DNA of 32,226 bases from Planctomycetota bacterium (GTDB lineage: Bacteria; Planctomycetota; Phycisphaerae; Phycisphaerales; Phycisphaeraceae), in the NCBI GenBank assembly GCA_024276075.1, contig JAJRXX010000002.1, forward strand, positions 1 through 32,226. The letters run 5' to 3'. The notes beneath the pieces are model-generated. The model did not search any database. It saw only the letters and a list, made by a program, of their open reading frames with translations, and had not been told where the DNA came from. The first letter of the stretch is position 1. Every line of letters begins with the position of its first letter. The position numbers were made by a program, and so were the translations under genes. Positions 5,188-22,850 of the stretch are shown here, piece after piece.

Positions 5188-5297
5188 AAGCGTTTTCTGA
5201 ATGAGTGTACGGTTGACAGGACTTCGCTACGAGCCGCAATCGTCAGGGAGCGGTCAATTTGTTGAAACCAAACGCTACGAATGCGTTGGGAATACTC
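5188..5297 (+). mobile_element. REP-bearing mini-element C1
   Basis: The left end AAGCGTTTTCTGAATG matches the left ends of the elements at 6295 and 22615. A REP copy (CGAGCCGCAATCGTCAGGGAGCGGTC, 5230-5255, interrupted here only by naming) lies in the middle. The right end ..GGGAATACTC is followed by TA (5298-5299). That terminal C and TA form the stop codon of the GNAT-like gene, read on the minus strand. Confidence 0.55.
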
Positions 5298-6294: not shown

Positions 6295-6439
6295 GAGCGT
6301 TTTCTCAATGCGTATAAAGTATCGAAAGGACTTCGCCACGAGCCGCGACCGTAAGGGAGCGGGCCAATTGGAGCCAAAGACCCGCTTGCTAACGCGCGAT
6401 GTTCGTCGAGAACCCCGTATGCGAAATCAGAAAACGCTC
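6295..6439 (+). mobile_element. REP-bearing mini-element C2 with AGAGCGTTTTCT ends
   Basis: Terminal inverted repeats begin TAGAGCGTTTTCT on both strands (left 6293-6305; right read from 6441). They continue imperfectly into CAATGCGTATAAAG and GATTTCGCATACGG. TA flanks lie at 6293-6294 and 6440-6441. A REP copy is at 6339-6363 (CGAGCCGCGACCGTAAGGG..). The right end stops 3 bp before the ileS stop codon. Confidence 0.7.
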
Positions 6440-14727: not shown

Positions 14728-17700
14728 ATGGAACTCGCCACACGATACAACCCCTCTGAAGTCGAGCCGCAGGTCGCACAGGCCTGGGCCGATGCCGGCG
14801 CATTCCACGCTCAACCAAATAACCCCAGCCCGCCCTATTGCATCGTCATACCCCCGCCGAACGTCACCGCCGCCCTGCACCTGGGCCACGCGCTCAACAA
14901 CACACTCCAGGACATCCTCATCCGCTGGCGACGCATGGCAGGCGACAACGCCGTCTGGATACCCGGCACCGACCACGCGGGCATCGCCACCCAAACAGTC
15001 GTCGAGAAACGCGTGCTCGCCGACGAGGGCAAAAAACGCACCGACTTCCAGCGTGACGAATTCGTCGCCAAAATCCAAGCCTGGAAAGACGAATACGAAA
15101 AACGCATCACCGAGCAACTCCGGCTCATGGGCTGCTCGTGCGACTGGGACCGCCAGCGGTTCACCATGGACGACATGTGCGCATGCGCCGTGCGCGAGGC
15201 GTTCTTCAAGCTATTCAAAGACGGTCTGATCTACCGCGGCAAACGCCTGGTCAACTGGGACCCCGCCACCCAAACCGCGCTCGCTGACGACGAGGTCGAG
15301 ATGCGCGACGTCGACGGCCACTTCTGGTACCTCAAATACCCGCTCGCACCCGGCAGCGACTCCGTCACCATCGACGGCCAAAAAATAACACACGTCACCG
15401 TCGCCACCACCCGGCCCGAGACCATGCTCGGCGACACAGCAGTAGCCATTAATCCCAAAGATCACCGCGCCGCCGCACTCGTCGGCAAACATGTCTTGCT
15501 ACCCATCGTCAACCGCACGATCCCGATCATCGCCGACGACTACGTCGTCCTACCCGACCCCGACAGCGACGACGCCAAAGCCCGGTTCGCCACCGGGTTC
15601 CTCAAGGTCACGCCCGCCCACGACCAAAACGACTATGAGATTGGCCTGCGACACGACCTGGAAATCATCAACATCATGGCTCCCGACGGCTCGATCAGCG
15701 ATCAACACGGTTGGCCCGACGACGGCATCACCAACGCCGACACGGACGCGGTGCCCTTGGGCTTGGACCGCGACAAAGCCCGCAAAGCCATCGTCGATTG
15801 GTTCCGCAAAAACAACCTGCTCGAAGAGGTGCGCCCCTACCGCCACGCCGTCGGACACAGCTACCGAAGCCACGTGCCCATCGAGCCGTATTACACAGAC
15901 CAGTGGTACGTGAAGGTCACCGACGACCGTTTAGCCAACGCCGCCCTACGCGCCTTGGCCAGAGACCAATCCGAAACGAGCTCCGACACGAGCCGCGACC
16001 GTAAGGGAACGGTCCCCCCCGCCACGAACTTCGAAACGAACCGCGACCGTAAGGGAGCGGTCCCTCCCGTCATGCCCCCCCCCGCCAACCATTACCTCAT
16101 CACCTTCACCACCTACGGCTCCTGGCTCCACGGCGACGCCAAAGGGTCCGTCGACAAACAGCACAACACCCCCGGCTCGCCATTCGTCCCAGAGAACAAA
16201 AAACGAGAACACTTCGAGCAAGACGAACTCAAACACGACCCGGTAACACTCGACACAAACCAGCGTCGTTGTGTGCGCGACACCATCCAGGAAGTCTGCC
16301 GCCACCGCGGTTGGCAACTCCACGCGTGCAACATACGCACCAATCACGCCCACATCGTTGTCGGGACCGACGACACACCCGAAAAGGCCATGAACGACTT
16401 TAAAGCCTACGCCACCCGCCGCCTCAATGAGCGGGGATGGATCGAAAAAGACCTGCCAATTTGGACACGCCACGGCAGCACGCGACACCTCGACGATGAG
16501 CCCTCTGTCGAAGCCGCGTGCCGTTACGTGCTCGATGAGCAGGGCGACGACCAGGACGCGATAGCGACGGATAACGGGCAAGACGAGAAGAAACCGCTCC
16601 CTCACGGTCGCGGCTCGCCAGAGAAACCCTGGCACGGCAAGCTCCGATTCACGCCCGACCGCTACGCCAAGACGTTCCAGACTTGGCACGAAAACATCCG
16701 CGACTGGTGCATCTCACGACAACTCTGGTGGGGACACCGAATACCGGTGTGGTTTTTCTTACTAAAAGATGACCCTGGTGGCGATACAACCCAGTTTCGA
16801 AAAGAAACACTTGATTGGTTCAATCAATATGCCCGCGAACTTCAAGTCCACGGTGATATTGAAATTCGCCAGAACACCGAGGGTATCTTGAGGCAACTAT
16901 GTAGCCGAACGAAAAAAGCGGATGAGGCAATAAATTATTTAATTAGATACACCTCCGGTCTCACCACCGATCATCAGAGCAATGCTCTGCAAAAATCACA
17001 AGAACTAGTAAAAGATTCCGATCTTGATTTCTCACGTGTCGATCAACTGGCTCGCCGCGTGGGAGAGCGTTTTATCACTCTTGAACAAGACCCCGACGTC
17101 CTCGACACCTGGTTCTCGTCCGCCCTGTGGCCGTTCAGCACACTCGGTTGGCCCGACGACACACCCGAGCTAAATACCTGGAACCCCGGGGCTGTGCTGT
17201 GCACCGCGCGCGAGATCATCACCCTGTGGGTCTCACGCATGGTCATGCTCAACCTCTACCTGCTCGATCGGCTGCCATTCAACGACGTCTTTATCCACGC
17301 CATGATCCAGGACGGCGACGGGCGCAAGATGAGCAAGTCACTGGGCAACGGCGTCGATCCCTTGGACATCATCGCCAGCCACGGGTCCGATGCCATGCGC
17401 TTCACACTCGCGGCCATGACCACCCAGACCCAGGACGTCCGCTTGCCCGTGGTCAAGGACCCCAAAACCGGACGCAACACCAGCGACAAGTTCGACACCG
17501 GTCGCAACTTCGCCAATAAGGTCTGGAACGCCACCCGCTTTGCGCTGACCAAGCTCGCCGAAGCGAAACAGGCCACGGGCCAAAGCCCTGCCGCCACCGA
17601 CGACGCCGAACTGCAGCTCGTCGACAAGTGGATCCTGTCGCGTCTGGCCGTCACCGTGCGCGACGCCACCACAGCCCTGGACCGCTACGACTTCCACAGC

Positions 17701-18459
17701 TACGCCCAGGGTCTGTACGACTTCTTCTGGCGTGACCTGTGCGACCGGTACATCGAAGCTGTCAAGCCCACCGTCACCCAAAATCCCGCTCAGCAGCGCA
17801 TGCTCGCACTGTGCATCGACGCGAGCCTACGCTTGCTGCACCCCGTCATGCCGTTTGTGACCGAAAAACTCTGGGAGAAGTTAAACGACGTCGCACCCGT
17901 GCGCGAGGTCAGCGGCGTGCAACTGCACCCAAGCGCCCTGCTCGTACACGCCACCTGGCCACAGGTCGCACCGGAACTCATCGACGAGCAAGCCGAAGCA
18001 GCGTTCGCACTGGTCACGCAGATCGTCACCGCGCTACGCCAGGTGCGCACCACGCACAAGGTCGCTCCCCGCCAGACCGTTACCTTCTCCGCACAAGCAC
18101 CGCCCGACACGGCTCAGGAGATCCTCGAGCAGCGGCAGCTCATCGAGACCCTCGCAAACGTCGTCGCCGCCGAGGTTGGCCCACGCGTTGAAAAGCCCAA
18201 CGACGCAGCCGAGACCCTCGTCGGCAGTGATATCCGCCTCTACCTGCACAGCCTGATCGACGCCGACGCCGAGCGCACGCGCCTGACCAAACAACTCGAC
18301 GAGGCCAAAAAGAACATTGCCGCCCTTAATGGCCGTCTGGCTAACAAGTCCTACATCGACAAAGCACCGCCGCACCTCGTCGCACAGACCCGCGACCAAC
18401 TCGCCACCGCTGTGAAGGAAGCCGACACGCTCGGGGAGCAACTCGCCGCGTTGGGCTAG
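14728..18459 (+). CDS. valS: Valine--tRNA ligase with embedded Y1-transposase-like domain
   Basis: 1243 residues, against about 880-950 for ordinary ValRS. The enzyme core is intact: PPPNVTAALHLGH (HIGH motif, 51-54), the CP1 editing region, WCISRQLWWGHRIPVW, DVLDTWFSSALWPFSTLGWP, KMSKS (867-871), the anticodon domain, and the C-terminal coiled-coil tRNA arm (last about 65 residues). Two extra blocks are inserted in frame. Residues about 421-630 hold REP-derived peptides (SRDRKGTVPP, NRDRKGAVPP) and then a Y1/HUH transposase-like domain (449 to about 620) with YGSWLHGD, H540-A-H542 and candidate tyrosine Y561. Residues about 676-786 are an unrecognised block with about 42% GC DNA. Both sit on either side of one conserved core segment. 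Whether the long protein is the working enzyme cannot be seen. It follows ffh by 11 bp; recO lies 166 bp downstream. Confidence 0.93.
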   Translation: MELATRYNPSEVEPQVAQAWADAGAFHAQPNNPSPPYCIVIPPPNVTAALHLGHALNNTLQDILIRWRRMAGDNAVWIPGTDHAGIATQTVVEKRVLADEGKKRTDFQRDEFVAKIQAWKDEYEKRITEQLRLMGCSCDWDRQRFTMDDMCACAVREAFFKLFKDGLIYRGKRLVNWDPATQTALADDEVEMRDVDGHFWYLKYPLAPGSDSVTIDGQKITHVTVATTRPETMLGDTAVAINPKDHRAAALVGKHVLLPIVNRTIPIIADDYVVLPDPDSDDAKARFATGFLKVTPAHDQNDYEIGLRHDLEIINIMAPDGSISDQHGWPDDGITNADTDAVPLGLDRDKARKAIVDWFRKNNLLEEVRPYRHAVGHSYRSHVPIEPYYTDQWYVKVTDDRLANAALRALARDQSETSSDTSRDRKGTVPPATNFETNRDRKGAVPPVMPPPANHYLITFTTYGSWLHGDAKGSVDKQHNTPGSPFVPENKKREHFEQDELKHDPVTLDTNQRRCVRDTIQEVCRHRGWQLHACNIRTNHAHIVVGTDDTPEKAMNDFKAYATRRLNERGWIEKDLPIWTRHGSTRHLDDEPSVEAACRYVLDEQGDDQDAIATDNGQDEKKPLPHGRGSPEKPWHGKLRFTPDRYAKTFQTWHENIRDWCISRQLWWGHRIPVWFFLLKDDPGGDTTQFRKETLDWFNQYARELQVHGDIEIRQNTEGILRQLCSRTKKADEAINYLIRYTSGLTTDHQSNALQKSQELVKDSDLDFSRVDQLARRVGERFITLEQDPDVLDTWFSSALWPFSTLGWPDDTPELNTWNPGAVLCTAREIITLWVSRMVMLNLYLLDRLPFNDVFIHAMIQDGDGRKMSKSLGNGVDPLDIIASHGSDAMRFTLAAMTTQTQDVRLPVVKDPKTGRNTSDKFDTGRNFANKVWNATRFALTKLAEAKQATGQSPAATDDAELQLVDKWILSRLAVTVRDATTALDRYDFHSYAQGLYDFFWRDLCDRYIEAVKPTVTQNPAQQRMLALCIDASLRLLHPVMPFVTEKLWEKLNDVAPVREVSGVQLHPSALLVHATWPQVAPELIDEQAEAAFALVTQIVTALRQVRTTHKVAPRQTVTFSAQAPPDTAQEILEQRQLIETLANVVAAEVGPRVEKPNDAAETLVGSDIRLYLHSLIDADAERTRLTKQLDEAKKNIAALNGRLANKSYIDKAPPHLVAQTRDQLATAVKEADTLGEQLAALG
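15989..16617 (+). mobile_element. REP-flanked RAYT-like unit inserted in frame within valS
   Basis: A REP-associated tyrosine transposase-like (RAYT, Y1_Tnp) coding unit is bracketed by REP palindromes. Two direct REP copies lie at 15989-16014 and 16037-16062 (48-bp period), and an inverted copy at 16592-16617. The coding part has its own in-frame ATG at 16072. The family hallmarks are HYLITFTTYGSWLHGD, RGWQLHACNIRTNHAHIVV (HUH pair H-A-H at 16345-16353), FKAYATRRLNERG (tyrosine codon at 16408) and TRHGSTRHL. RAYT proteins are known to act on REP palindromes in other bacteria. Here the ORF does not stop but runs on into the ValRS frame. Exact insertion borders are not determinable; no clear target duplication was seen. 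Confidence 0.85.
16754..17085 (+). other. Low-GC in-frame block inside valS
   Basis: About 110 codons between HRIPVW and QDPDVLDTWF. A hand count over 16801-17040 gives 100 G/C in 240 bases (about 42%), against about 67% in the valS line starting at 15241. The encoded peptide (FRKETLDWFNQYARELQVH..., ...ADEAINYLIRYTSGL...) is mostly helical and matches nothing I recognise. Ordinary ValRS has a much shorter linker here. It probably comes from a different genomic source than the rest of the gene. Confidence 0.7.
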
Positions 18460-22615: not shown

Positions 22616-22850
22616 AACGTTTTCTCAATGCATATAAAATATCGAAAGGACTCCGAAACGAGCCGCGACCGCCACAAAACGGGGCTCCCCGCCTTGACGA
22701 GCCCCGACCGCCACGAAGCGGGGCTCCCCGCCTTGACGAGCCGCGACCGCCACGAAACGGGGCTCCCCGCCTTGACGAGCCGCGACCGTGAGGGAGCGGT
22801 CCTCTTCGTTCTTTAGAAACAGCTCTCCGCATCCATTTTGTTAGACACTC
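22615..22850 (+). mobile_element. REP-array mini-element C3 between fabH and fabD
   Basis: The left end GAACGTTTTCTCAATGCATA matches element C2 (GAGCGTTTTCTCAATGCGTA), including the following ATCGAAAGGACT. The centre holds three 39-bp tandem units and a terminal REP copy (22659-22802). The right end ..GACACTC is followed by TA (22851-22852) and is diverged. It separates fabH from fabD by 269 bp in an otherwise tight cluster. It is non-coding. Confidence 0.6.
22658..22802 (+). repeat. Tandem 39-bp REP-derived array (3 units plus REP)
   Basis: Units at 22658-22696, 22697-22735 and 22736-22774 each read ACGAGCCGCGACCGCCAC then RAARCGGGGCTCCCCGCCTTG, differing at one to three bases. A standard REP unit follows from 22775. 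Within each unit CCGC/GCGG and GGGG/CCCC can pair, so the transcript could form a row of hairpins between fabH and fabD. Confidence 0.8.

Follow-up and report, generated by a model that had tools for sequence, protein, structure and literature searches.

A RAYT-like transposase domain between REP palindromes resides in frame within the valyl-tRNA synthetase of a planctomycete

Introduction

How does a transposase-like domain come to lie in the open frame of an aminoacyl-tRNA synthetase, and what might it do there? The question is raised by the valS gene in a stretch of 32,226 nucleotides (the window; positions 1 to 32,226, forward strand, of contig JAJRXX010000002.1, assembly GCA_024276075.1) from a Planctomycetota bacterium of the Phycisphaerae. 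A preliminary description of this DNA had placed a RAYT-like Y1/HUH domain inside valyl-tRNA synthetase (ValRS), and a host-dependent mobile module was among the readings it offered.

Inteins with homing endonucleases reside in frame in conserved genes and have host-gene-specific lineages, a patchy distribution and a nuclease domain. A search of open-access literature found no description of a RAYT or HUH domain within an aminoacyl-tRNA synthetase or any other housekeeping enzyme. In the available portion of Quentin et al. (2018, PMC6006769), class 3 of TnpA_Y1, which occurs in Planctomycetes, is characterised by the HUH motif NHVH, a W[TA] motif and a Y----Q or YV[VI]xEQ motif, and as the REPtron it has flanking structures with many genomic copies; unexpectedly long TnpA_Y1 proteins were excluded from that study, being regarded as fusions or annotation errors.

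The valS gene and its product

The features of the locus are collected in Table 1. No stop was found inside the valS frame in the open-reading-frame reading. The product scored 1019 bits with the NCBIfam valine--tRNA ligase model (cut-off 704), the class-I catalytic, anticodon and C-terminal arm domains were all recognised by Pfam and NCBIfam models, and the top PDB match of the predicted structure was the ValRS 1gax (E 3.6e-46). The ValRS core was kept around the insert, as had been stated before. A second full valS, a possibility considered in the preliminary description, was not found in the 2.88-Mb genome (95.8% complete), in which one full copy was detected; four further matches were weak and incomplete (best E 1.1e-25, 29% identity).

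Table 1. Features of the valS locus, in window positions
Feature	Position	Strand	Basis
valS, valyl-tRNA synthetase with embedded RAYT-like domain, 1243 aa	14728..18459	+	single open frame
Left REP palindrome, copy 1 (in-frame reading SRDRKGTVP)	15989..16013	+	direct repeat, inverted-repeat arm
Left REP palindrome, copy 2 (in-frame reading NRDRKGAVP)	16037..16061	+	direct repeat, inverted-repeat arm
RAYT-like / TnpA Y1 (class 3) domain, residues about 450-606	16075..16545	+	Pfam Y1_Tnp; model; PDB matches
HxH motif, H540-A-H542	16345..16353	+	invariant alignment columns
Catalytic tyrosine candidate Y600, in YVLDEQ	16525..16527	+	invariant alignment column
Right REP palindrome, opposite orientation to left copies (in-frame reading PLPHGRGS)	16593..16617	-	inverted repeat

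Since the genomes concerned are mostly metagenome assemblies, an assembly artefact or a dead valS copy might be suspected. However, only one valS was found and its frame has no stop, and many independent assemblies show this arrangement again, among them single-contig genomes such as G204 (in ValRS) and G094 (in PurH), so that misassembly is not the general cause. The recurrence refutes this explanation across the class, and the probability of the explanation is practically negligible. The in-frame RAYT-like domain inside the ValRS of this planctomycete is confirmed.

The embedded domain

Pfam Y1_Tnp matched residues 511-600 with 27.3 bits, above the cut-off of 23, in agreement with the earlier reading of a Y1/HUH domain. 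The NCBIfam family REP_Tyr_transpos (NF047646) matched residues 503-602 with 32.2 bits, below its cut-off of 80, and the domain is therefore described as a class-3 TnpA_Y1, a RAYT-like relative, rather than as a member of NF047646. The domain limits were taken from the secondary structure of the ValRS model, in which the insert is predicted as a separate domain with low-confidence stretches on either side. When the domain was folded alone, all 26 PDB matches at E ≤ 0.001 were Y1 transposases (IS608, ISDra2, IS200, Sulfolobus) or the RAYT 4er8, with a lowest E of 4.2e-5 and TM-scores by query length of 0.51-0.57. The predicted structures are consistent with a separately folded Y1 domain.

Two types of the domain, type A (that of the window) and type B, were distinguished among relatives. 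The columns of H540 and H542, correctly named in the preliminary description, were invariant in both alignments (8/8 and 29/29 rows), and the HxH motif was kept in 31/31 embedded type-A copies. The tyrosine had been sought at Y561, but this column has W in 1 of 8 rows; Y600 (column 146) was invariant in both alignments and kept in 31/31 embedded type-A copies, and Y561 was rejected as the nucleophile. Y600-VLDEQ fits the Y....Q catalytic motif of TnpA_Y1 class 3 and RAYTs. HxH and Y were likewise intact in 49/49 embedded type-B copies, giving 80/80 over both types. The pN/pS values were 0.17-0.44 for embedded RAYTs and 0.17-0.25 for free ones, with pS near saturation in most pairs, and the selection that they reflect may partly predate the insertion.

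REP palindromes at the borders and across the genome

The preliminary description had seen the domain and missed the bordering REP palindromes, which make the insert a whole REP-RAYT-REP unit. Left copy 2 starts 48 nt after copy 1, and the frame is thereby kept; the right arm was 92% complementary to the left copies, at 579 and 531 nt. These border REPs match the genome-wide REP pattern. With up to 3 mismatches, the pattern gave 8 matches in the window against 0.00 expected from shuffles; with two free positions, it gave 48 exact matches genome-wide, 3 of them in valS, and the reversed-pattern control gave 0. The other REPs of the genome were nearly all intergenic (29 of the 30 tested, out of the 48). 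The 5' foot beside the palindrome was ACGAG, GCGAG or ACGAA, which share CGA, and the fit to the CnGA foot of TnpA_Y1 class 3 was not clear-cut. Folding of single-REP hairpins was not clearly better than that of shuffled DNA (z -0.65 to -1.84), and hairpin energy, not being significant, was dropped as evidence.

The border REP variant varied among genomes. In the six type-A inserts in which the pattern was found (G000, G004, G015, G028, G045 and G048), one left REP closely matched the right REP of its insert, and the stem showed a base-pair-like exchange (G-C, C-G, A-T). The border variant of G004 had 9 copies in G004, 3, 3 and 1 in G000, G012 and G017, respectively, and was absent from the remaining 9 of 13 genomes; that of G028 had 8 copies in G028 and 9 in G015, and was absent from the remaining 11. 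Variant and insert can part, for G015 bears another variant in its own insert. G000, G004 and G028 each contained only one type-A RAYT (E ≤ 1e-6), and the valS insert is the sole RAYT of its type in the genome to which the window belongs.

The ValRS loop in relatives

Of 61 genomes in the valS set, 56 were read (G002, G018, G033, G053 and G060 were left out), with partial genes in G013, G029, G036 and G041. A RAYT was present in this ValRS loop in 9/56 genes, 7 of type A and 2 of type B, the latter with other border peptides. In the insert-free relatives this loop was shorter; with regard to the refuting case named in the preliminary description, no unrelated version of the domain was seen among them. 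Loop length and sequence varied over the 56 genes. REP-like remnants were observed in 3 of the 47 empty loops. Genus g37 held two type-A inserts, one of type B, one valS without insert and one unread, and presence was also patchy between near sisters on the ValRS tree. The type-A inserts in ValRS mostly showed ~50-75% identity to each other.

If the insert were removed or separated at the protein or RNA level, by an intein, a protease or an internal start, a normal ValRS and a free RAYT would result, and there is an ATG at 16071, directly before the domain. However, the Pfam scan at E ≤ 0.1 gave no intein/Hint family, the REP-encoded junctions varied in sequence and length among genomes, and, for ATG starts, only 1 of the 29 named type-A copies in host proteins has a Met in the 15 residues preceding the core. 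We consider such separation highly improbable.

Residence in other host proteins

Type-A and type-B hits were surveyed in 397 sampled Phycisphaerae genomes. At least 33/139 type-A hits formed an in-frame fusion with a host protein, a lower bound because hits with open frames below about 400 aa were mostly left unfetched; for type B (relatives at E ≤ 1e-25, all 66 fetched) the count was 59/66, and 7/66 had no host. The totals of 139 and 66 are manual counts, consistent with those given for each genome. Among the best 80 of 271 named relatives, type A was embedded in 29 loci, and the 51 rows called free include six in longer frames with no host assigned (L179, L193, L198, L211, L220 and L234).

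The hosts were ValRS, IleRS, LeuRS, AlaRS, PurH, RdgB, GcvP, RarA, MiaA, ThiE and DNA-modification or defence types. With two RAYT types in the loop and fusions in at least 10 host families besides ValRS, the locus is not the single oddity of one ValRS that it had seemed. The host labels rest on references, ten of which (all but ValRS, AlaRS and DUF1156) were drawn from the fused loci of the surveys. Internal fusions matched the host on both sides in 46/55 cases, 9 of the 46 being reference loci that match themselves. Each label had one example named by Pfam or NCBIfam, of which those of IleRS, RdgB, RarA and, by a wide margin, the helicase fell short of the curated thresholds (fragments or split domains).

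The purifying selection on the domain and its recurrence in translation and nucleotide enzymes might suggest that the host enzymes have adopted the RAYT as a functional component, for example for single-stranded nucleic acid binding or to link translation with DNA stress; in the accessible text of PMC8049555 the RAYTs are collectively termed domesticated. Domestication is hard to reconcile with the patchy presence even inside genus g37 and between near sisters, with two RAYT types in the same loop, with hosts as dissimilar as PurH, RdgB, GcvP and methylases, and with the retention of matched REP borders, and it appears distinctly improbable.

Phylogeny of insert and host

The type-A RAYT tree sorted by host gene, with 9 changes against 28.9 when shuffled; supports were modest, starred branches force at most 1 change per group, and the queries were ValRS-based. 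The type-B tree also sorted by host gene (15 changes, minimum 11, against 45.7 shuffled). On the ValRS tree, to which nine named rows had been added because they bear the insert, type A required at least 11 changes, 9 of them forced by starred branches. The full ValRS topology imposed on the RAYT was rejected (AU p=6.8e-7), whereas a constraint of only the 5 well-supported ValRS branches gave AU p=0.054 and KH p=0.046 and was not rejected by AU. Owing to this borderline result, ancient insertion with many losses may instead have occurred, and the claim of strict incongruence between insert and ValRS trees was lowered: it is strong with the full topology and borderline with the supported branches.

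These data bear on whether the insert is a passive relic, that is, whether REP/RAYT units land anywhere and survive only in frame in permissive loops, the domain being inert and drifting. The variable ValRS loop agrees with this, the rarity of other REPs within genes would be expected if gene insertions are purged, and REP-only inserts in frame are already known (PMC3733652, as far as its available text goes). On the other hand, the catalytic residues are intact in all embedded copies checked despite the divergence of the type-A inserts in ValRS, pN/pS is well below 1, type-B relatives at E ≤ 1e-25 are mostly intragenic, and the sorting of lineages by host gene is unpredicted by random landing. 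A passive relic is therefore unlikely.

Discussion

Starting from the observed DNA anatomy, the single open frame, the intact HUH/Y set, the matching genomic REPs, the two RAYT types in one loop and the residence in other enzymes, most of them housekeeping ones, we consider it probable that ValRS carries in frame, within a permissive loop, a complete REP-RAYT-REP unit (REPtron), active and intein-like without splicing. The host-dependent mobile module proposed in the preliminary description is thus the idea that fits best. A single polypeptide is predicted from the frame, in which ValRS would stay functional because the RAYT forms a separately folded domain on disordered REP-encoded linkers. 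The RAYT would cut and join single-stranded REP DNA via the candidate Y600, copying REPs in trans. It would gain the promoter and ribosome binding site of the host gene, and its decay by frameshift or nonsense mutation would be blocked, since the host enzyme would be killed. Loss by deletion may leave REP remnants, and gain may occur by RAYT-driven insertion or through the insert passing from one allele of a host gene to another. For the host-gene-specific lineages, allele-to-allele transfer is more likely than RAYT-driven insertion, and spread between valS alleles is plausible.

More tentatively, we suggest that such units could form a class of splicing-free, protein-resident homing elements: REP-ended HUH transposases, permanently in frame in housekeeping enzymes, with host-gene lineages that spread between alleles, made together with the enzyme and mobilising genomic REPs. 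The RAYT inserts have in common with inteins lineages tied to the host gene (with modest supports for type A) and patchy presence, but differ in lacking a splicing domain, in being inserted in a variable loop, and in their HUH nuclease and REP ends. The valS insert shares the Y1 transposase fold with IS200/IS605, but has REP-type ends and no second gene and resides in a host frame.

The motifs and multi-copy flanks of TnpA_Y1 class 3 and the REPtron are found in the valS insert as well, but class 3 is described as free-standing genes in the portion of PMC6006769 available, whereas here the gene is embedded in the frame of host enzymes. Among the type-B domains, those of IleRS (L290, 90.5 bits), RdgB (L300, 85.9) and GcvP (L331, 80.5) passed the NF047646 cut-off of 80, and those tested in PurH, LeuRS, RarA, ThiE, MiaA and the helicase scored 75-79, just under it; what sets type B apart from the NF047646 type is its location inside host proteins, with 7/66 relatives host-free. 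Intragenic REPs and Rickettsia palindromic elements, which the sections available of PMC3733652 report as in-frame insertions in genes, some tRNA synthetases among them, carry palindromes only, whereas the valS insert carries a whole transposase gene.

The part of PMC8049555 available regards the persistence of REP/RAYT systems in genomes as a distinct question. Residence in genes that cannot be lost would be a concrete answer, giving guaranteed expression and protection from inactivation. The findings suggest that, among the long 'fused' TnpA_Y1 proteins discarded in the earlier survey, some are real, and that essential enzymes, including four tRNA synthetases, can accommodate a nuclease domain about 150 residues long; the host loops named here may serve as sites for protein engineering.

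A transposase-like domain within valyl-tRNA synthetase

The ORF at 14728–18459 was open for 1243 codons without a break, and the NCBIfam profile identified it as valyl-tRNA synthetase (ValRS; 1019 bits against a cut-off of 704). Inside it, the Pfam profile Y1_Tnp matched residues 511–600, which confirmed the transposase-like domain reported in the preliminary description. That description had also considered that a second intact valS might exist, but a search of the window's genome revealed no further full valS. The columns of H540 and H542, the histidines proposed earlier, were invariant in the alignments of relatives. The column of Y561, previously suggested as the catalytic tyrosine, was variable, whereas that of Y600 was invariant, and the catalytic candidates are thus H540, H542 and Y600.

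Predicted alone, the RAYT-like domain reached a pLDDT of 83.8 (input alignment of 29 rows), and all 26 of its PDB matches at E ≤ 0.001 were Y1-type transposases or the RAYT 4er8. In the model of ValRS residues 1–991 (pLDDT 79.2, pTM 0.71), of which the best PDB match as a whole was ValRS 1gax, the domain was predicted to be separate at residues ∼450–606 with one weak stretch (468–487), and it was flanked by low-confidence stretches at 419–448 and 615–630. A second variable region of ValRS, ∼100 amino acids long and following WWGHRIPVW, was observed at window ∼16750–17090; its GC content was 42–48% versus 57–65% around it, and its length differed among relatives.

REP palindromes in valS and in the genome

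REP palindromes were found at both borders of the domain and elsewhere in the window.

REP palindromes located in the window
Feature	Position	Orientation	Remark
Left REP palindrome, copy 1	15989–16013	forward	borders RAYT-like domain in valS
Left REP palindrome, copy 2	16037–16061	forward	48 nt from copy 1
Right REP palindrome	16593–16617	inverted	borders RAYT-like domain in valS
Five more same-family REPs outside valS	152–170, 836–854, 5236–5254, 6345–6363, 22782–22800		0–2 mismatches to pattern

The REP pattern occurred 48 times in the window's genome, including three times in valS, whereas the pattern read backwards did not occur. Because a simple codon score placed 29 of the 30 other fetched sites in non-coding DNA, the REPs beyond valS look like ordinary extragenic REPs. 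Four Y1 matches were present in this genome, of which only the one in valS was of its type (type A); no such REP was found within the fetched flanks of the other three. Within the TnpA_Y1 superfamily, the type-A domain matches class 3, which has the same motifs, occurs in phyla that include Planctomycetes and is flanked by multi-copy structures, but the foot sequences were not clearly alike (PMC6006769).

valS of relatives

Across the 56 of 61 genomes with a readable valS, the distance from QWYVKV to DWCISRQLWWGH was 254–308 residues in nine and 67–158 in the remaining ones. Seven of the nine long loops held type A; the other two held type B, which is another RAYT and has border peptides of its own. 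Within one genus (g37), two valS carried type A, one type B, one was empty and one was not read.

The border REPs varied between genomes, while within an insert one left copy closely matched the right copy (six type-A inserts with the pattern); the insert of genome G044 did not conform to the pattern, and its inverted ends were identified by eye. The variants of G004 and G028 had 9 and 8 copies in their own genomes, respectively, and were present in few others, the exception to a strict match of variant and genome being 9 copies of the G028 variant in G015. In G048, five left REP copies were spaced by 39 nt, which preserved the frame. REP-like remnants were observed in 3 of 47 empty valS loops (G007, G012 and G056), compared with 0.76 expected for the 7-mer used.

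Other host proteins

Among the best 80 of 271 type-A relatives kept from the named genome collection, 29 were in-frame inserts: 14 in ValRS, 8 in AlaRS and 7 in a DUF1156-type methylase. Among 397 genomes drawn from the window's class (Phycisphaerae), 139 matches to type A were obtained in 107 genomes, with at least 33 embedded copies in 32 genomes, counted mostly among the longer frames (13 ValRS, 12 AlaRS, 4 PurH, 3 DUF1156 and 1 MmeI-type). The PurH copies, the MmeI-type copy and one ValRS copy were remote members, with E values between about 1e-26 and 1e-28. The ValRS of G127 carried a type-A RAYT at a different site, and one AlaRS gene contained two RAYT domains, each at its own site (L167; G142:C11).

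Type B gave 66 matches in 54 genomes of the same draw, 59 host-fused and 7 without a host. Its hosts were PurH (16), IleRS (10), LeuRS (8), RdgB (7), ValRS (6) and ThiE (4), and more rarely GcvP (3), MmeI-type (2), RarA, MiaA and a helicase (1 each). The host was matched on both sides in 46 of 55 internal fusions, 9 of these 46 being self-matching reference loci, and most of the others were truncated by the fetched flank or contig end. In all four fusions to ThiE, a thiamine phosphate synthase, the RAYT was C-terminal rather than inserted (L330, L332, L345, L348). For each host, Pfam or NCBIfam identified one example, several under curated cut-offs because the host was split or cut. The preliminary description was right about the domain in ValRS, but the scope is wider than one ValRS: AlaRS, PurH, IleRS and other hosts also have RAYTs.

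The non-housekeeping hosts included DNA-modification or defence-type proteins, namely DUF1156, a DISARM-like helicase (weak matches) and the MmeI family (L175, L184, L337, L276, L323, L329). Inserts were also seen in records titled Vicinamibacteraceae, Bacillota and Deltaproteobacteria (L188, L203, L175), of which at least the title of L188 is doubtful. In a Verrucomicrobiia record (L179, counted as free), a type-A RAYT was followed in the same frame by a pilin-like sequence (GFTLVEILVVLVLLSL, read by eye).

Upkeep and descent of the embedded domains

Every one of the 31 embedded type-A copies retained HxH and Y, compared with 50 of 51 free ones. By motif search, HxH and Y were also retained in all 49 embedded type-B copies with an assigned host, although L306 ends at the tyrosine motif; HxH was retained in the 12 rows with 'unknown' host, and a loose Y search was satisfied in 67 of 67 type-B rows. 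The pN/pS values were 0.17–0.44 for embedded pairs and 0.17–0.25 for free pairs, with synonymous sites near saturation in most. These sequence comparisons fit purifying selection on the RAYT domain, part of which could predate insertion.

When mapped onto a 65-row ValRS tree, type A required at least 11 changes, 9 of them forced by well-supported branches. Insert and host identities were uncorrelated (rho of −0.003 for 120 pairs), and the insert identity was the higher in 37 of these pairs. Imposing the full ValRS topology on the insert was rejected (AU p of 6.8e-7), and imposing the five well-supported ValRS branches alone was borderline (AU p of 0.054, KH p of 0.046). Type-A RAYTs sorted by host gene with 9 changes versus 28.9 when shuffled, with modest supports and a mostly ValRS-based query set; type-B RAYTs did so with 15 changes (minimum of 11, shuffles 45.7). 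RAYT lineages thus tend to stay with their own host gene, but their presence is patchy. Host-gene sorting together with patchiness points to lateral spread between alleles of one gene, to an old insertion followed by many losses, or to both.

RAYTs are otherwise described as single-copy genes with vertical inheritance (PMC8049555), transposase-less in-frame REPs are known, tRNA synthetases included (PMC3733652), tnpA genes of subclass 2.4 contain in-frame REPs, and unexpectedly long proteins were put aside as fusions or annotation errors (PMC6006769). An open-access literature search yielded no description of RAYTs that reside within housekeeping enzymes. The residence of RAYTs in host enzymes is solid as a fact, and wider than first described. 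Its mechanism is most likely a REP/RAYT element, presumably active, for which the host gene would serve as a residence.
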